Assembly: GCA_027491235.1 (NCBI GenBank)
Contig: JAIXWO010000021.1
Location: 620,001 to 684,000, forward strand
Length of the DNA stretch: 64,000 nucleotides
Direction: 5' to 3'
DNA from: Sphingomonadales bacterium
GTDB lineage: Bacteria > Pseudomonadota > Alphaproteobacteria > Sphingomonadales > Sphingomonadaceae
Shown here: in pieces, positions 43,773-58,094 of the stretch
Numbering within the stretch: position 1 is the stretch's first letter
Layout of the letters: every line of letters starts with the position of its first letter
The notes under the pieces: generated by a model
What the model saw: the letters and a program-made list of their open reading frames with translations, nothing else
What the model was told of the DNA's origin: nothing
The model's database searches: none
Position numbers and translations under genes: made by a program

Positions 43773-44120
43773 CTATCCCGCCAGCGCTTGTCCCACGACT
43801 TCGGACAGCGACGCCGCAGTGAACGGCTTGGGCAAAAGCGGCCAGCCGCCAAAGGCTTCGGGTGGTGTGTCGCCAATGTCGCCACTCATATAGATGACGC
43901 GCAGTTCCGGGCGTTCGGCGTGGACGCGGGCGATGAAATCAGGGCCGCGCATGCCCGGCATCAGCACGTCGGTGACGACGAGCTGAATGTCATCGCGGCT
44001 GCTGCAAATGGTCAGGGCTTCGGTGCCGTCACAGGCCGACAAAACCTCATGCCCCATGGCAGACAAGGCGCCCGCCGTGGCGGTGCGGATGCGGGCGTCG
44101 TCGTCGACGACGAGGATCAT
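43773..44120 (-). CDS. Single-domain response regulator (receiver only)
   Basis: MILVVDDDARIRTATAGALSAMGHEV...VVTDVLMPGMRGPDF...PLLPKPFT; start 44120 overlaps stop of 44120..45322 gene. Confidence 0.88.
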   Translation of the reverse strand: MILVVDDDARIRTATAGALSAMGHEVLSACDGTEALTICSSRDDIQLVVTDVLMPGMRGPDFIARVHAERPELRVIYMSGDIGDTPPEAFGGWPLLPKPFTAASLSEVVGQALAG

Positions 44121-45322
44121 TACGAAATAATGCCTGTTGCCCGGCCCGCAATGGCGAACCGTTTCAGGATATCCGCGACCTGCTCCGACGTGTGTTCGGC
44201 GCAGAGCGAGCAGCGCAGCAGCGTCATACCCGCAGGCGTCGCCGGTGGACGCGCGAGGTTCACGTAAAGCCCGTTGTCGAGCAGCGCTTCCCACATCATC
44301 GCGCCGCGTTCGAGGTCCGGCATGATGACGGCGATGATTGCTGACTGGGGCGTTTCGGTGCCCAGCTTGAAGCCAAGATCGCGCAGACCCTTGTGCAGGG
44401 TCTTTGAATTTTCCCACAGATGCGCGCGCTTGTTGCTACCGTGCATCAGCTTGCGGATCGATGTGGCCGAACTCGCCATCACGCTCGGCGGCAGGGCCGC
44501 TGTGAAGACATAGGGACGGCAGACGAGGCGCATCACCTCAAATTTCGGGTGATTGGACACGCAGAAGCCGCCAACGGTGCCGACGGATTTGCTGAACGTG
44601 CCGATGATGAAATCGACATCGTCGATGACGCCCTGTTCCTCGGCAACGCCGCGGCCATGTTCCCCGATAAAGCCCATCGAATGCGCTTCGTCGACCAGCA
44701 CCATCGCGCCCGCTTCCTTGGAAACGCGGATCATCTCCTTGAGCGGCGCGACATCGCCGAGCATCGAATAGACGCCTTCCAGAACGACGAGCTTGCCCGC
44801 TTCGGGTGGCAGGCGCTTCAGTCGCTTTTCGAGCGCTTCGACATCATTGTGGCGGAAGGCAACAACTTCGGCATCGCCCATCTTGCACCCATCATAGATG
44901 GAGGCATGGCTGTCGATGTCGAGGATGATGTAATCCCCCTTGCCGGCAATCGTCGAAATGATGCCGAGGTTGGCCTGGTATCCCGTTGAAAACACCATGG
45001 CATGGTCCATGGCGTAGAATTCCTTGAGCGCCTCTTCGACATCGCGGTGGTCGCGGAAGGTGCCGTTGAGCACGCGGCTGCCGGTCGTGCCTGCGCCGAA
45101 TTCATCAAACGCTTTCTTGCCGGCTTCGATGACGTCGGGGTCGAACGTCATGCCCATATAGTTATAGGTGCCGAGCAGAATGGTCTCACGGCCATTGCAG
45201 ACAGCGACGGTCGGGGACTTCACCTCTTCCATCACGAGTGAGAAGGGATCACGCACGCCGGTGGCGAGCAGATTTTCACGCTGTTGGATCAGAGGATCAA
45301 ATTTCGAAAAAAGATCAGTCAT
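44120..45322 (-). CDS. spt: Serine palmitoyltransferase (alpha-oxoamine synthase)
   Basis: TYNYMGMTFDPDVIEAGKKAFDEFGAGTTGSRVLNGTFRDHRDVEEALKEF; DEAHSMGFIGEHGRG; GTFSKSVGTVGG; start could be 45331. Confidence 0.9.
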   Translation of the reverse strand: MTDLFSKFDPLIQQRENLLATGVRDPFSLVMEEVKSPTVAVCNGRETILLGTYNYMGMTFDPDVIEAGKKAFDEFGAGTTGSRVLNGTFRDHRDVEEALKEFYAMDHAMVFSTGYQANLGIISTIAGKGDYIILDIDSHASIYDGCKMGDAEVVAFRHNDVEALEKRLKRLPPEAGKLVVLEGVYSMLGDVAPLKEMIRVSKEAGAMVLVDEAHSMGFIGEHGRGVAEEQGVIDDVDFIIGTFSKSVGTVGGFCVSNHPKFEVMRLVCRPYVFTAALPPSVMASSATSIRKLMHGSNKRAHLWENSKTLHKGLRDLGFKLGTETPQSAIIAVIMPDLERGAMMWEALLDNGLYVNLARPPATPAGMTLLRCSLCAEHTSEQVADILKRFAIAGRATGIIS

Positions 45323-45441
45323 TTTTTTCATTCTTCCCGTTGCGTCGTGCCGACTTGGCCCCCGGCACCTTGCCAACCCAGACGCCCGTTCTGGCTGGCA
45401 TGACCCCGAAAAAACACGTCGGGGCGACGGAAATTAGAGGC

Positions 45442-45684
45442 TTAACTGCCCAGTTTGATCACGGCATCCACAAGCTGCCCGACCGTTTCAATTTCGGCCT
45501 GCATGTTCATGGTGATGATGATGTCAAATTCGTCTTCAACCGCGGCCACGAAATCCATGACCGTCAGGCTGTCCCATTCCAGATCATGCTGGAATGTCGT
45601 TGCGTCTGAGAGTTCCGTGCCTTTTTTGTTAAAGGGCGCGATCAGGTCGGCAACCTTGTCAAATACTGTCTGGCGATCCGTCAT
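45442..45684 (-). CDS. Acyl carrier protein (SPT-associated)
   Basis: 80 aa, DLEWDSLTVMDFVAAVEDEFDI phosphopantetheine DSL site. Confidence 0.9.
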   Translation of the reverse strand: MTDRQTVFDKVADLIAPFNKKGTELSDATTFQHDLEWDSLTVMDFVAAVEDEFDIIITMNMQAEIETVGQLVDAVIKLGS

Positions 45685-50875: not shown

Positions 50876-51745
50876 CTATCTTACCGCGCCCTGCCGCAGC
50901 AGGCGGGGCACAAGGAACAGCGCCGCCACCAAAGGAAAACGCCGCTGCCAGGGTTTGATCTCAATCTGCGTGCCGGCATGCCGGTTGATCTTCCAGGCGA
51001 GGTAATCAATCCCGCCTGAAAAGGTCAGGCTGGCCTTGGCGAGGCGCAGGACGCTTGCCCGCTTTCCGCGCTTGCGCAATTTGGTCCAGACGCGTTCTGT
51101 GGCCGGGCGGCTCATCGTTGCAGAGAGGGGGATGGCCGCGCCAAAGCGTGCATAGCGCGCCGGGTCTGCTTCAACGATAGAGCCGGACCGCGTCGTCTTT
51201 TCTGCGCGCAATTCGCATTGATAGGTCCGGGCAAAGCCTTCCTGCCAGACGATCATCGGGTCATGCGATGCCGCCACAGGCCGGGCGAGATCAAACAAGG
51301 TTGGCGCCGCCTTGGCGACCGCGTCCACAGCCCGGTCTCGCGCGGCGGCATCTTTCGACCAGACCAGCCGGGACGGTTGGGCAAAGCGCGCCCAGACGGA
51401 AACGGTGGTGGCGTCGGGTCTGTTGAGCGCTGCAAAGTCCGCCTCGCTCAGCACCGCATATTTGGCCGCAAGGCCATCTGCTGTGAACGGAAAGACATTG
51501 GGGGGGATCAGCCGGTTGGCGGTGGCGAGCCAGCGCTTTTCATAAGCCGATGGATAGTCCGACACGATCAGGTAGAAATCGAGCATCAGCCCATCAAGCC
51601 GCGCTTCGCGCAGGCAGGACCCGTAAAACAGCACGGCCCGCGCAGCATCACCGTAAAGGGCAGCGATGGCAGTTGCCATCTCGGTGACTTGGGGAAGGAC
51701 AGGGTGCGCCAGTTCTTCTTCAACCAGCGCGCGCAGCGCAGTCAC
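50876..51745 (-). CDS. Tam41/MMP37-like nucleotidyltransferase (candidate phosphatidate/lipid-phosphate cytidylyltransferase)
   Basis: AVLFYGSCLREARLDGLMLDFYLIVSDYPSAYEKRW...LAAKYAVLSEADFAAL...WARFAQPSRLVW. Confidence 0.5.
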   Translation of the reverse strand: MTALRALVEEELAHPVLPQVTEMATAIAALYGDAARAVLFYGSCLREARLDGLMLDFYLIVSDYPSAYEKRWLATANRLIPPNVFPFTADGLAAKYAVLSEADFAALNRPDATTVSVWARFAQPSRLVWSKDAAARDRAVDAVAKAAPTLFDLARPVAASHDPMIVWQEGFARTYQCELRAEKTTRSGSIVEADPARYARFGAAIPLSATMSRPATERVWTKLRKRGKRASVLRLAKASLTFSGGIDYLAWKINRHAGTQIEIKPWQRRFPLVAALFLVPRLLRQGAVR

Positions 51746-52710
51746 ACTGCCAGCTTGAGGAAGGGAATAGGCGGCGTGGAGCGGAGCACAATGGGTCGCC
51801 CTTCAATGGCCCTGAATGTTTCGCCATCCAGAATGACGCTGGTGCCGCAGCTTTCGATGCGGATAACATCGCCCTGCTGCACATGCACGCCGCGCACAGG
51901 TTCCCGGCCGAGCCTGCCGGCAATGGCGGCCCAGAGCGCGCGGACAAGTGCCGGGGCCGATTGCTCGATGGCGAGCAGCTTCAACCCCATCGCGCCGGGC
52001 GCGCTGGTCCGGCCGTTGAGCAGCAGCTTTTCCAAAGTCGTGACGATCAGGAAGGAGAAGCGGCGTGTTGCCTCTCCATCGCGGATCAACGAGACGGAGA
52101 CGGGGTTTGGCGCGGGCGGCAGCAGACGGCCATGCAGGCCAGAGATCATCGCGAATACAGCGGCAATCCCGGCAATCACATGGCACAGCCCGTTGGGCAG
52201 GCCGAGGGGATAGAGTTTTTCGCGGCAATAGAGAATTGTGTCAGCAAGGCCTGCGCCGCCCAGAAACATACCAAGGACAGGGCGGTTGCTATGTTCGCCC
52301 TCGGTCAGCGAAATGAGCTCCCGCTGGACGACATGGTCATGCAAGTCATGGCGTGCGGCCTCGACAATCCGCTCCAGCATCCCGATGGGATCCCCATCAG
52401 CCCCCAGATCAAGCGCGATCAGGTTGGTCTTGCCATTGGGCAGGACAGCGACCGGCGGCGGTGACGCGCCGAAATAACCGCCATGGTGAATTTCGGTCAG
52501 GGCGGCCTGCACCGTCCCATCGCCGCCATTGATGATCAGAATGCGCGGCTTGACCTGCGCAATGGAGGTGAGGGCGGCACCAATCTGGCTCGCATCCTCA
52601 ACCTCATAATGGAACACTTCGGGGTGTTGCGCGCAAAAGGAACGGATGCGCGGCAGGATGGCGCGGTTGCCCGTCGAATTCGGGTTCGAAAGCAGGGCAA
52701 CAAGCGCCAT
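51742..52710 (-). CDS. LCB5/YegS-type lipid kinase (diacylglycerol/ceramide kinase family)
   Basis: LSNPNSTGNRA...ILIINGGDGTVQAALTEI...VAVLPNGKTNLIALDLG; ATGA overlap with 50876..51745. Confidence 0.85.
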   Translation of the reverse strand: MALVALLSNPNSTGNRAILPRIRSFCAQHPEVFHYEVEDASQIGAALTSIAQVKPRILIINGGDGTVQAALTEIHHGGYFGASPPPVAVLPNGKTNLIALDLGADGDPIGMLERIVEAARHDLHDHVVQRELISLTEGEHSNRPVLGMFLGGAGLADTILYCREKLYPLGLPNGLCHVIAGIAAVFAMISGLHGRLLPPAPNPVSVSLIRDGEATRRFSFLIVTTLEKLLLNGRTSAPGAMGLKLLAIEQSAPALVRALWAAIAGRLGREPVRGVHVQQGDVIRIESCGTSVILDGETFRAIEGRPIVLRSTPPIPFLKLAV

Positions 52711-52712
52711 GC

Positions 52713-53204
52713 CTAGAGGTACCGCACCGTGATCGGCACAATGGTTGTGCCGTTGGCGACAGAGACCTGCACTTGGCTGGCCGGCGGCTTGCGTCCAAAC
52801 AGCACGGACATCAGCGAGAATTTCGGGTTGCCCGATGCGCCAATGCCGTCAGACCGGTCTGTATCGCCGTTCTTATTAATATCATGGCGGACATCGACGG
52901 CATAGGTGCCGGCCGCGCCAACGGGAACGCAAATTTCAATCGGGCCGGATGCCGGCACGTCATATTCATAGCGCTTATGCGCGAACTTCTTGTTGAAATA
53001 GGTGTCTGGGTCACCGGTGAAGGTGCGCACACGCACCGTGCCCGCACGACTTTTGAGGCCTGCCACACGGACGAGGATCGTCGGCTCGCGGCCGCCGGAA
53101 CACAGCGACGGGTTCGGGCCCAAAGCTTGGGCCATCCCGAATCCGGGTAAGCCCAAAGCCGCCGTTGCCAGCACCAACATTCCTTTACGCAACTTTGCCA
53201 TCAT
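52713..53204 (-). CDS. DUF2141 secreted protein
   Basis: signal peptide; VAGLKSRAGTVRVRTF...ICVPVGAAGTYAVDVRHDINKNGDTDRSDGIGASGNPKFS. Confidence 0.85.
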   Translation of the reverse strand: MMAKLRKGMLVLATAALGLPGFGMAQALGPNPSLCSGGREPTILVRVAGLKSRAGTVRVRTFTGDPDTYFNKKFAHKRYEYDVPASGPIEICVPVGAAGTYAVDVRHDINKNGDTDRSDGIGASGNPKFSLMSVLFGRKPPASQVQVSVANGTTIVPITVRYL

Positions 53205-53337
53205 TCTGACACCCTTGAAAAATGCATCGGGCCGTTTGCACTCACGGCCAGACTCACCTAATCCTCGTTGGCACGATCCATCTGGACTCCATTTGCGGCC
53301 AAATCATGGTCAGGAATCGACTGAATTCAGAAATACG

Positions 53338-54543
53338 ATGTTGACCTCCACTGACCGCTACATTGCGCGATTGATCGCTGTGCCGTTGTTTTCGACGCTC
53401 GTCATCGCGGCCATGCTGCTTGTGCTCGACAAAATGTTGCGCCTTTTTGATTTTGTGGCGCAGGAAGGTGGCCCCGTCAGCGTCATTTGGCGCATGCTGG
53501 CAAATCTGCTGCCCGAATACCTCTCGCTCGGCATTCCCATTGGTTTGATGCTCGGCATCCTGCTCGCATTCCGGAAGCTGGCAACGACGTCGGAGCTCGA
53601 TGTCTTCCGCGCCGTCGGCATGAGCTATGGGCGGCTTCTGCGCGTCCCCTATATCTTTGCCGGAGTGCTGGCGCTTGTGAACTTGGGCATTGTCGGCTTT
53701 GTTCAGCCCTATTCCCGCTATGCCTATGAGGGGTTGCGGTTTGAACTGCGCTCCGGTGCGCTTGGGGCCTCTATCAAGGTTGGGGAGTTTGCCCGCTTCG
53801 GCAAGCGGATGACGATGCGGATCGAACGGTCCGAAAATGGCGGACAGGATCTCTACGGCATTTTTGTGCGCGCGACGTCAAAGAACAATACCTCGCTGTC
53901 GGTCACGGCGGAGCGGGGGACGTTCATGGCGACGGATGACCCGGACGTCATCATTCTGCGCCTGAAAAATGGCGTGCTGGTGCATGATGCGCCAACCTAT
54001 ATCCAGCCCCGCGTGCTGACCTTCACGGCCCATGATCTGCCCATTGACCTTCCAAAGATTGAGGCGTTCCGTGGGCGCGGCGACAAGGACGGGGAATTGA
54101 CGATTCCGGAACTCGTCCGGGTCAGCCAGGACAAGAATACGCCGCTTGCCTTGCGACACCAAAGCCGCGCCAATTTCCATTTCCGGCTGGTCGAGGTCGC
54201 CATGATGCTGCTCTTGCCGTTGCTTGCTGTCGCGCTCGCAGTGCCGCCCAAACGGTCGTCTTCAGCGCTTGGTGTCTTCCTGTCGATCGTGATGGTTGTG
54301 ACCTATCACAAGATAAATGAATGGGCCGAAGGCATGGGATCGCTGAACAAGGTGGATCCCTTCTTCGCGCTGTGGACGCCGTTCCTCCTGTTTGCGGGCC
54401 TCATCTGCTGGATGTACTGGACGCTTGCCTATAAACCCGGTGGGCAGCCTATCGGTGCTTTGGAAAAGGGCTTTTCTGTCCTCGGCAAATCGATCCGCAA
54501 TCTCCTGGCCCGTAAACAGGCTAAAGGGATGCCGCCTGTATGA
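53338..54543 (+). CDS. lptF: LPS export ABC transporter permease LptF
   Basis: YIARLIAVPLFSTLVIAAMLLVLDKMLRLFDF...PEYLSLGIPIGLMLGILLAFRKLATTSELDVFRAVGMSYGRLL. Confidence 0.92.
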   Translation: MLTSTDRYIARLIAVPLFSTLVIAAMLLVLDKMLRLFDFVAQEGGPVSVIWRMLANLLPEYLSLGIPIGLMLGILLAFRKLATTSELDVFRAVGMSYGRLLRVPYIFAGVLALVNLGIVGFVQPYSRYAYEGLRFELRSGALGASIKVGEFARFGKRMTMRIERSENGGQDLYGIFVRATSKNNTSLSVTAERGTFMATDDPDVIILRLKNGVLVHDAPTYIQPRVLTFTAHDLPIDLPKIEAFRGRGDKDGELTIPELVRVSQDKNTPLALRHQSRANFHFRLVEVAMMLLLPLLAVALAVPPKRSSSALGVFLSIVMVVTYHKINEWAEGMGSLNKVDPFFALWTPFLLFAGLICWMYWTLAYKPGGQPIGALEKGFSVLGKSIRNLLARKQAKGMPPV

Positions 54544-55634
54544 GTGCGCAGTTTTTCCCGTCCAAGACGATGTCCCTCTATATGGGGCGGCTCTTTCTTG
54601 TGCGCAGCGTCGCGGTGCTGGCGGCTCTGGTCCTTGTCTTGCAGGCGCTTGATCTGCTGGGAGAGTCGGACAAGATTCTCGCGGTCCCCGGAAATGATAA
54701 TGGCGATATCTGGCGCTACGTGTCCATGCGGATGCCGCAGATCATCCAGCGGTTTCTACCTTTTTCGGTCCTCTTGGGCGCCCTCATCACCATGGTGACG
54801 CTCAACCAGAATAGCGAAGTGGTGTCGATGAAGGCGTCGGGGCTCTCCGCGCATCAGGTGCTTGCTCCGTTGATCATCGCAAGCATCGGGGTCGCCGCCA
54901 TCTCGTTTGCCTTTAATGAGCGGATTGTGACACGGGCGACGGCCACGCTGAACCGCTGGCAAAAGGTGGAATATGCCGCGATCCCGATGGACAGCCGGGT
55001 GCAATCTGACATTTGGGTCCGCGATGGAACGAACCTCATCAATGCCGGCAGCGTGCAGGGGCGCGGCATGGGCACGCGTCTGGCCGATATCACCATCTAT
55101 GATCGCAGCGGCGGGGAATTGAGCGCCATCATCAAGGCGAAGGCGGGGCGTCCGCAGGACACGGGTTGGCAGCTCGATGGGGCCAGCCGTTTCGATGTGA
55201 AGCGCGGCGTACGTGAAGATTTAGGCAAGGTCACCGCCGCTTCGGGCGTCCGTCCCGACCAGTTCACTCTGGCCAGTGTCGATCCCGACGGACTTTCTTT
55301 CCTGCAGCTTTGGGGCGCCATTGACGATCTGGAGGCCGCGGGTCGACCGACGCGGTCGCTCAAGGCATCGCTCTGGCATAAGATTTCCGGTCCGATGTCA
55401 ACCGTGCTGATGCCCCTGCTGGCGGCCGTTGCCGCCTTTGGGGTTGCCCGATCCGGCAAATTGTTCGTCCGCGCCGTCATCGGGATGGCGCTGGGCTTTG
55501 CTTATTTCGTCGCAGACAATTTCGGCCTCGCGATGGGAGACTTGGGCGTCTACCCGCCGCTGCTGGCGGCCTGGGGGCCGTTCTTCCTTTTCCTGCTTAT
55601 CGGCGAATATGTGCTGGTGAAGACCGAGGAGTAG
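54540..55634 (+). CDS. lptG: LPS export ABC transporter permease LptG
   Basis: MSLYMGRLFLVRSVAVLAALVLVLQALDLLGES...LLGALITMVTLNQNSEVVSMKASGLS; ATGA overlap with lptF. Confidence 0.92.
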   Translation: MSAQFFPSKTMSLYMGRLFLVRSVAVLAALVLVLQALDLLGESDKILAVPGNDNGDIWRYVSMRMPQIIQRFLPFSVLLGALITMVTLNQNSEVVSMKASGLSAHQVLAPLIIASIGVAAISFAFNERIVTRATATLNRWQKVEYAAIPMDSRVQSDIWVRDGTNLINAGSVQGRGMGTRLADITIYDRSGGELSAIIKAKAGRPQDTGWQLDGASRFDVKRGVREDLGKVTAASGVRPDQFTLASVDPDGLSFLQLWGAIDDLEAAGRPTRSLKASLWHKISGPMSTVLMPLLAAVAAFGVARSGKLFVRAVIGMALGFAYFVADNFGLAMGDLGVYPPLLAAWGPFFLFLLIGEYVLVKTEE

Positions 55635-55641
55635 CGGAGCC

Positions 55642-56784
55642 TTAACGCCCGCGCTGGAACGTGCTTCTCACCAACGTCGTCAACAGCCCCGGAAGCCCGG
55701 CATAGCTTGCGGCATGATAGCGCGAGGTCTCTGGCAGCGCGGCGACGAGACGGCGGTGCGCTTCGGCCAGCGAGTGATAGGGCAGCCCTGGCAGCAGATG
55801 GTGAAGCGCATGGTAGCGCAGCCCCACCGGTGCCCAAAGCGCGGGCAGGAAAGCAGGCGGCGGCACGTTGACGCTGTCGAGATATTGGCCGGTGACGGTC
55901 ATGACCTCGCCGTCATTCTCCCAAAGATGGGCGACCAGCGTGCGGAACTGGTTGATGACGACCACCCCTGCATGAATGGCGAGCGCAATGAGGAAGGCGC
56001 GCAGCGGGATGATGCCTGTGGCCACCAGCGTGATCAGCGTGATCGCCCATAGGCTCGCGGCGGTTTCCTGCACGATCCACATCCGGCGGAAATCCCCTTC
56101 GGGCATCCGCCTGCGATAGTCGGGATTGATCGATAGGCTCGAATAGCGCTCCACCACCGTGCGACGCAGGGTCGACGAGAGGAGCGACAATGGTGCCAGC
56201 AGGCCATAGCGGACCAGCACAGCAATCGGCCCGAGCGCCGACACGATCACAAACAGCGGCACCGTCCATGGCTTCATCAGCGCCAATGGCAGATATTCAG
56301 GGTCTTCCTTCGTGCCATAGCGCGTGCGGGCATGGTGCAGGCTGTGCACCCCTTCATACATGAAGGACGGCACCAGCAAAGGCACACCGATGAGCGCGTT
56401 CCAGGCAAAACGGAAGCCGGGCAACGCGGTCGGACGGATATGCGTCAGTTCATGAATGAACAGGCCCGCGCGATACAGCGTCGCAATGGCGAGCGCAGCC
56501 CAGCCGAGCAAGGCACCGGTCGTATCGGCCATGATGGCCATTGCCAAGGCGACATAGCCCACAAGCGTGCAGGCGAGAAAATCGGGCCAATAATATTCGG
56601 GCCGCGCGGTCGAAAGGTCGCGCGTCAATTCGGCGGCCGCGCGGATCATCGCGGCATCGTCGGGATGCTGTGAAAGCGGGATGGACGCCGTCTTGGGCGC
56701 GCCGGATGCAGTCGCTTCATCAGCCGAAAGGAGCGAGGTTTTCATATCGTTTCCAAATCTCTCTTGTCCCTTAGACGAGATCAT
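55642..56784 (-). CDS. Membrane fatty-acid desaturase
   Basis: histidine boxes HELTH, HSLHH, HALHH; start may be 56745. Confidence 0.88.
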   Translation of the reverse strand: MISSKGQERFGNDMKTSLLSADEATASGAPKTASIPLSQHPDDAAMIRAAAELTRDLSTARPEYYWPDFLACTLVGYVALAMAIMADTTGALLGWAALAIATLYRAGLFIHELTHIRPTALPGFRFAWNALIGVPLLVPSFMYEGVHSLHHARTRYGTKEDPEYLPLALMKPWTVPLFVIVSALGPIAVLVRYGLLAPLSLLSSTLRRTVVERYSSLSINPDYRRRMPEGDFRRMWIVQETAASLWAITLITLVATGIIPLRAFLIALAIHAGVVVINQFRTLVAHLWENDGEVMTVTGQYLDSVNVPPPAFLPALWAPVGLRYHALHHLLPGLPYHSLAEAHRRLVAALPETSRYHAASYAGLPGLLTTLVRSTFQRGR

Positions 56785-56864: not shown

Positions 56865-58094
56865 TTGGTTGCCTTGACATCGTTGCAAGAAGGCGGGACT
56901 TGGCAGCCTTCATTGCGGGCAGAGGGAACCGAGGCATTGACCCAGATCAGTTTGAGCGTCCGACCGGTCAAAACCAAGGCGGACCGCGCAGCCTTTGTGG
57001 ACCTGCCTTTCCGGCTTTACGCCAAGGATCCCAACTGGGTGCCGCCGCTGAAGGATGAGGTTTATGGCCTGATCACGCCGGGCAAAAATCCCTGGTTTGA
57101 ACATGGCGAGGCGCAACTCTTTTTGGCTGAACGCGGCGGGCAGGTTGTTGGCCGGATCACCGCGCATATTGATCAGCTTGCGCTCGCCCAACCGCCAGAA
57201 CAGGGCATGGGGCCGGGCGTCGGCTTTTGGGGTTTCTTGGAAGCCGAAGATGAAGAGGCCGGCAAGGCGCTCCTCGACGCGGCGGCAGACTGGCTCCGCA
57301 CCAAGGGCATGAACCGCGCCATGGGGCCGTTGAGCTTTTCCTATTGGGATGAAATCGGCCTGCTGGTCGATGGGTTCGATACGCCGCCTGTCGCTATGAT
57401 GGGCTTCAACGCCGCGTCCTATCAGGCATGGATTGAAGCATCCGGTTATGGAGGCGTGCAAGATCTTTTCACCTACGCCGTGCCGATTGCCGATGGCTTC
57501 CCTGAACTGGTCAATCGCCTTGTCGCGATGGGGGACAAGAGCGAGCGGATTCGCATCCGCCGCGTCGACAAAAGCCGTTTCGATGAAGAGGCCGCGCTCA
57601 TCATCGGCATATTGAATGACGCTTGGTCCGACAATTGGGGCTTCGTGCCGTTCACGCCGGCCGAAATTGCCTATGCGGGCAAGAAGCTGAAACCGATTGT
57701 CTATGAAGACCTGATCCGTGTGGCGGAGGTGGATGGTGAGCCTGTCGCCTTCATGATGACGATCCCGGATCTCAATGAGAAGACCAAAGGCTTCAATGGG
57801 GCGCTCTTTCCGTTCAATTGGGCCAAGCTGCTCTGGTGGCTGCGCGCGCCCAAGGTCCGCACCATGCGCGTCCCCCTGATGGGCGTGCTGAAAAAGCACC
57901 AGAGCTCACGCCTGGCCAGTCAGCTCGCGATGATGATGATCGAGTATATCCGGCGAGATGCAGTATCGAAATTTGGCGCGACACAGGGCGATTTCGGCTG
58001 GGTGCTGGCATCCAACGGCCCGATGCGCTCAGTGGGCGAAGCTGTGGGCGGCACGGTCAACAAGGTTTACCGCGTCTACGAAAAGGCAATCTGA
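56865..58094 (+). CDS. GNAT-like acyltransferase, candidate bacterial ceramide synthase
   Basis: VRPVKTKADRAAFVDLPFRLYAKDPNWVPPLKDEVYGLITPGKNPWFEHGEAQLFLAERGGQVVGRI; TTG starts at 56865 or 56937. Confidence 0.6.
   Translation: MVALTSLQEGGTWQPSLRAEGTEALTQISLSVRPVKTKADRAAFVDLPFRLYAKDPNWVPPLKDEVYGLITPGKNPWFEHGEAQLFLAERGGQVVGRITAHIDQLALAQPPEQGMGPGVGFWGFLEAEDEEAGKALLDAAADWLRTKGMNRAMGPLSFSYWDEIGLLVDGFDTPPVAMMGFNAASYQAWIEASGYGGVQDLFTYAVPIADGFPELVNRLVAMGDKSERIRIRRVDKSRFDEEAALIIGILNDAWSDNWGFVPFTPAEIAYAGKKLKPIVYEDLIRVAEVDGEPVAFMMTIPDLNEKTKGFNGALFPFNWAKLLWWLRAPKVRTMRVPLMGVLKKHQSSRLASQLAMMMIEYIRRDAVSKFGATQGDFGWVLASNGPMRSVGEAVGGTVNKVYRVYEKAI

Follow-up and report, generated by a model that had tools for sequence, protein, structure and literature searches.

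The window analysed here is a stretch of DNA of 64,000 nucleotides from the genome of a Sphingomonadales bacterium, and it contains two overlapping genes, encoding a lipid kinase and a nucleotidyltransferase (NT) with a Tam41-like fold, which are probably orthologous to cpgB and cpgC in the pathway to ceramide phosphoglycerate (CPG), with the Tam41-like protein making CDP-ceramide. In the proposed scheme, the kinase would use ATP to convert ceramide to ceramide-1-phosphate, the NT would transfer CMP from CTP to ceramide-1-phosphate, yielding CDP-ceramide and pyrophosphate, and a further transferase would displace CMP by glycerate or another head-group alcohol, giving an anionic phosphosphingolipid, e.g., CPG; translational coupling would hold the kinase and the NT at matched levels. 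The kinase step is proposed from the family membership of the protein and the Caulobacter assay of its counterpart, and the CDP-ceramide step from the fold and the genomic context of the NT. We infer the use of CTP, CDP-ceramide as the product and CPG as the end product in this organism.

Kinase/NT gene pair and probable identity of the kinase

Both open reading frames lie on the minus strand at the positions predicted earlier (Table 1), and the overlap of the kinase stop codon with the NT start codon is also present as four bases, except that the sequence is GTGA and not the ATGA of the original prediction. The DUF2141 gene ends 2 bases upstream of the kinase start and is likely the first gene of an operon DUF2141-kinase-NT. 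A DUF2141 gene is kept beside the kinase gene in most sphingomonad loci, and also in Roseomonas (L177) and Qipengyuania (L178); its product is a candidate accessory factor.

Table 1. Coordinates of the gene pair and of neighbouring features in the window.
Feature	Position	Strand	Details	Evidence
Serine palmitoyltransferase (Spt)	44120..45325	-		E 1.2e-208 to 2x8u, 2e-189 to 2jg2 (solved serine palmitoyltransferases)
Specialised acyl carrier protein, AcpR-like	45442..45684	-	directly upstream of Spt; same pairing in related loci	acyl carrier protein matches
NT, Tam41-like, probable CpgC orthologue	50876..51745	-	289 aa, GTG start	model, Foldseek, invariant residues, context
GTGA overlap	51742..51745	-	NT start GTG and kinase stop TGA	sequence
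Lipid kinase, probable CpgB-type ceramide kinase	51742..52710	-	322 aa, ATG start	PF00781 E 3.8e-13
DUF2141 protein	52713..53204	-		PF09912 E 1.3e-14
LptF permease	53161..54543	+	start codon uncertain, Pfam domain about 53356-54420	PF03739 E 6.5e-64
LptG permease	54540..55634	+		PF03739 E 4.2e-79
Fatty acid desaturase/hydroxylase family protein, possible ceramide-modifying enzyme	55642..56784	-		PF00487 E 7.7e-25
GNAT-family protein, probable bacterial ceramide synthase (CerS)	56865..58094	+		PF00583 E 2.6e-6

The four-base overlap occurs in 14 of the 47 sphingomonad loci having the kinase beside the NT, the remaining loci showing a spacing of 4 to 137 bases, with a single locus at 628; thus, the adjacency of the two genes is conserved, but their exact overlap is not. 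The NT is a genuine gene and not a chance reading frame, since relatives are found in 92 of 121 sampled genomes of the same family, with the kinase gene directly upstream and on the same strand in every case (92/92); in the same 121 genomes, only one partial kinase match was found without the NT.

The predicted succession of a lipid kinase and a Tam41-like nucleotidyltransferase is borne out by the match of the first protein to the Pfam model DAGK_cat, which is well over the cut-off, and by the fold comparison of the second described below. The window kinase contains the GGDG motif, invariant among 24 cluster-linked kinases, and has no CxxxCxxC motif of the kind found in eukaryotic ceramide kinases, the lack of which has been used as a criterion for a bacterial ceramide kinase (PMC10331486). 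It scored 221 bits against a profile of kinases that in other Alphaproteobacteria are encoded next to NT homologues, whereas one of the two other DAGK_cat proteins of the genome scored 32 bits and the other gave no match. Because of these scores and both motif features, the protein is probably the CpgB-type kinase of the genome; Caulobacter CpgB is a demonstrated ceramide kinase (PMC10331486). A single-sequence PDB search with the kinase revealed no match.

Tam41-like fold of the nucleotidyltransferase

The Tam41 assignment, made by eye in the original prediction, holds at the level of the fold, but it has no counterpart in Pfam: searches with the window NT against Pfam, even at E 10, and against NCBIfam gave no match, and this includes the Tam41 model PF09139. 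The same model is matched by 2 of 35 diverse NT relatives (best E 9.8e-7), and the relative L116 is slightly below its cut-off (23.2 vs. 24 bits). The comparison of the AlphaFold2 model of the NT, built from 26 relatives (mean pLDDT 88.3, pTM 0.86), with the PDB by Foldseek, proposed earlier as a check, placed Tam41 structures in all five top positions, the best match being the bacterial Tam41 7ecd with bound CTP-Mg (E 3.1e-7, whole length), followed by chains of the mitochondrial structures 6ig2/6ig4; the TM-scores were only about 0.4–0.5. Below Tam41, with weaker scores, came generic nucleotidyltransferases, those for aminoglycosides among them. The modelling supports a Tam41 fold for a protein that falls outside the Tam41 family as Pfam delimits it.

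Nine residues (Y41, G42, D56, K95, R120, P124, E178, R180 and E182) are invariant in the 35 diverse NT homologues. Across the first 210 positions, the profile of these homologues is collinear with 7ecd at a weak score (E 0.055), and the motifs YGS, IDLILIV, KYG, GRFxKP and SYSGDxR are in register in the alignment; in the PDB search with this profile, a generic nucleotidyltransferase scored similarly to 7ecd. The sole PDB match of a profile of close NT relatives, ribosomal protein S8, was rejected as spurious, and a single-sequence PDB search with an NT relative near the Pfam cut-off revealed no match. Of the three acidic residues usual in the nucleotidyltransferase fold, Tam41 has been reported to retain just one (PMC11646218). 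In the NT, the LDFY strand motif has a single acidic residue, the invariant D56, and in the window protein a Tyr stands where the second acidic residue would usually be; E178 and E182 are the other invariant acidic residues. The C-terminal 79 residues of the NT are strongly basic (18 K/R, 3 D/E), which would fit the C-terminal domain of Tam41, known to bind the membrane (PMC7018664).

In summary of this comparison, the NT resembles the Tam41 CDP-DAG synthases (the Firmicutes enzyme 7ecd and the mitochondrial 6ig2/6ig4) in the fold, the order of motifs, the basic C-terminal region and possibly the single acidic residue of the strand motif, and differs from them in sequence (12–16% identity only) and in setting, which is cardiolipin synthesis for Tam41 and a neighbourhood of sphingolipid genes for the NT. 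CdsA-type CDP-DAG synthases (PF01148) catalyse the same type of reaction as that proposed for the NT (CTP + lipid phosphate), but they are unrelated integral membrane proteins, encoded in this genome by a separate copy elsewhere.

Sphingolipid gene context

The gene pair is located about 5.5 kb from the Spt gene in the window, which also encodes several other proteins of likely relevance to sphingolipids (Table 1); Spt with its acyl carrier protein, the likely CerS and LptF/LptG, as well as the correspondence to cpgB-cpgC, were absent from the original prediction. The window GNAT protein shares 41–44% identity over ~380 aa with the GNAT proteins of the ceramide clusters L129, L130 and L132, and an AasR-like ligase (48% identity) is encoded elsewhere in the genome. 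The desaturase/hydroxylase family protein, homologues of which are found within the sphingolipid clusters L112 (36%) and L176 (38%), is a candidate ceramide hydroxylase or desaturase. The genome has no LptF/LptG pair other than that of the window, and a search of it, at an estimated completeness of 100%, revealed no LpxC; for these reasons, LptF/LptG may carry sphingolipids in place of LPS in an LPS-lacking organism.

Among the 80 nearest relatives of the NT, all had Spt (69) or the kinase (47), or both, in the fetched locus. In 33 Sphingobium-type loci, no kinase was found nearby even by profile search, and Spt and the acyl carrier protein are encoded about 2 kb from the NT in all of them; because of this arrangement, the tie of the NT to sphingolipid synthesis, as judged by gene neighbourhood, is independent of the kinase. 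Sampling of the wider class gave the NT in 34 of 289 genomes, and 29 distant alphaproteobacterial loci that were fetched contained the kinase (25/29) and Spt (21/29) within about 1.5 kb. Several larger loci have aasR-cerR-acpR-spt opposite NT-kinase, together with LptF-LptG, and in several of those clusters a gene for a CDP-alcohol phosphatidyltransferase (CpgA-like) lies beside the kinase gene, accompanied by a GNAT gene.

This context bears on the first of two routes named in the original prediction, an alternative synthesis of CDP-DAG, where diacylglycerol would be phosphorylated by the kinase to phosphatidic acid, from which the Tam41-like protein would make CDP-DAG. Characterised Tam41 enzymes, including the bacterial one, do make CDP-DAG (PMC11646218), and DAG is, in vitro, about as good a substrate of CpgB as ceramide is (PMC10331486). 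A canonical CdsA, the search for which had been suggested with the prediction, is, however, present in the genome (E 1.2e-54), and the linkage to Spt or a ceramide-kinase-like gene in 80/80 nearest relatives speaks against this route, as does the unchanged level of phosphatidic acid on cpgB deletion in Caulobacter (PMC10331486). A bypass of this kind is improbable, because a canonical CdsA is present and the pair is linked to sphingolipid genes, and that route can be set aside; the same consistent linkage favours the second route of the prediction, towards a ceramide-phosphate head group, and its comparison with Caulobacter.

Probable relation to the CPG pathway and the missing transferase

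In the Caulobacter cluster CC_1165-CC_1155, the ceramide kinase CpgB is encoded by CC_1160 and CpgC by CC_1161. CpgC is genetically required for the conversion of ceramide-1-phosphate to CPG and bears an InterPro domain that hints at a CDP-DAG synthase, NDP-activated ceramide having been raised as a possibility in 2024 (PMC11324152). The mechanism of CpgC was called "unidentified" in papers of 2025 and 2026 (PMC12275187, PMC13228409). Sphingomonas wittichii and Zymomonas mobilis were reported to have orthologues of most of the cluster genes; for the latter, CPG, and not CPG2, was predicted since CC_1159 (cpgA) is missing (PMC11324152).

The gene order of the alphaproteobacterial and plasmid clusters matches the published order of CC_1165-CC_1155, with the pair at the position of cpgB-cpgC, and comparison with Caulobacter by gene order and published descriptions suggests that the window pair is orthologous to cpgB/cpgC. 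Like CpgB-CpgC (CCNA_01218-01219, CC_1160-CC_1161), the pair comprises an adjacent lipid kinase and a protein resembling CDP-DAG synthases by domain, and the Caulobacter region likewise has Spt adjoining, with CerS, CerR, AcpR, AasR and copies of LptF/LptG. Unlike in Caulobacter, Spt is at a distance from the window pair, the LptF/G pair is the only one in the genome, and no CpgA-like gene was detected in the genome, which would limit the pathway to the CPG step.

Most of the pathway, including CpgA- and CpgD-like genes, is present on annotated plasmids from Pseudomonas, Diaphorobacter and Roseomonas, and the plasmid records examined label the NT homologues as hypothetical proteins only. Plasmid pPNP1 of Pseudomonas sp. 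JS425 (L175) contains aasR, cerR, acpR, spt, the kinase, the NT, CpgA- and CpgD-like genes and LptF/G; it and pDCB2 of Diaphorobacter sp. JS3051 (L176) are IncP plasmids with sphingolipid clusters, and one of them is predicted to be conjugative. Plasmid-borne clusters would permit horizontal spread of the pathway. The possibility that the NT corresponds to CpgD was considered and rejected; CpgD is a COG1213 enzyme (PMC12275187), and the plasmid clusters hold a separate gene of the phosphocholine-cytidylyltransferase family alongside the Tam41-like gene.

The enzyme that would use CDP-ceramide is the missing element of the scheme in this genome. A search with PF01066 (CDP-alcohol phosphatidyltransferase) detected only two proteins in the genome, which by their length are probably PgsA and PssA, and revealed no dedicated CDP-ceramide-using or CpgA-like transferase; because of this, the third enzyme appears to be missing or to come from another family. 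Two other readings draw on this result. The NT could act in the sphingolipid pathway without forming CDP-ceramide, by activating a small head-group phosphate or by joining phosphoglycerate to ceramide-1-phosphate directly, as would also agree with the original genetic model, where CpgC turns ceramide-1-phosphate into CPG in one step (PMC11324152). We regard such a role as unlikely: the fold of the NT is that of CTP:lipid-phosphate transferases, the small-molecule cytidylyltransferase of Caulobacter is the separate enzyme CpgD (PMC12275187), and the authors of the genetic study considered a direct condensation to be unfavourable in energy (PMC11324152). Alternatively, CDP-ceramide might be passed to the general PssA or PgsA, leading to ceramide phosphoserine/phosphoethanolamine or ceramide phosphoglycerol and not to CPG, which would suit a genome with two CDP-alcohol phosphatidyltransferases only and no detected CpgA-like gene; this seems very unlikely, as a divergent transferase may escape PF01066 and CPG is what the conserved context would lead one to expect.

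A second protein with a CDP-alcohol phosphatidyltransferase domain, distinct from the CpgA-like gene product, adjoins LptG in some clusters (L133:17615-18826 and L176:5896-7104), which makes it a candidate, in those species, for the missing transferase that would use CDP-ceramide. A broader proposal can be put forward, with about an even chance of being right, that CpgC-type proteins are a branch of Tam41 that switched from phosphatidic acid to ceramide-1-phosphate and makes CDP-ceramide, the activated intermediate for phosphosphingolipids of bacteria, which in the LPS-lacking sphingomonad would go to a transferase that does not belong to the known CpgA family. The idea of CDP-ceramide activation is not new, and the structural match of the predicted model is an independent support for it.

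Sphingomonads are known mainly for glycosphingolipids, and no report of CPG measured in sphingomonads was found in the literature. The CPG pathway enables some Gram-negative bacteria to live without lipopolysaccharide, and it affects polymyxin sensitivity in Caulobacter. For the conversion of ceramide-1-phosphate to CPG in this pathway, a Tam41 fold for CpgC offers a concrete chemistry, namely the CTP-dependent formation of CDP-ceramide; if this is true, the fold of a mitochondrial cardiolipin enzyme would be at work in bacterial sphingolipid synthesis.
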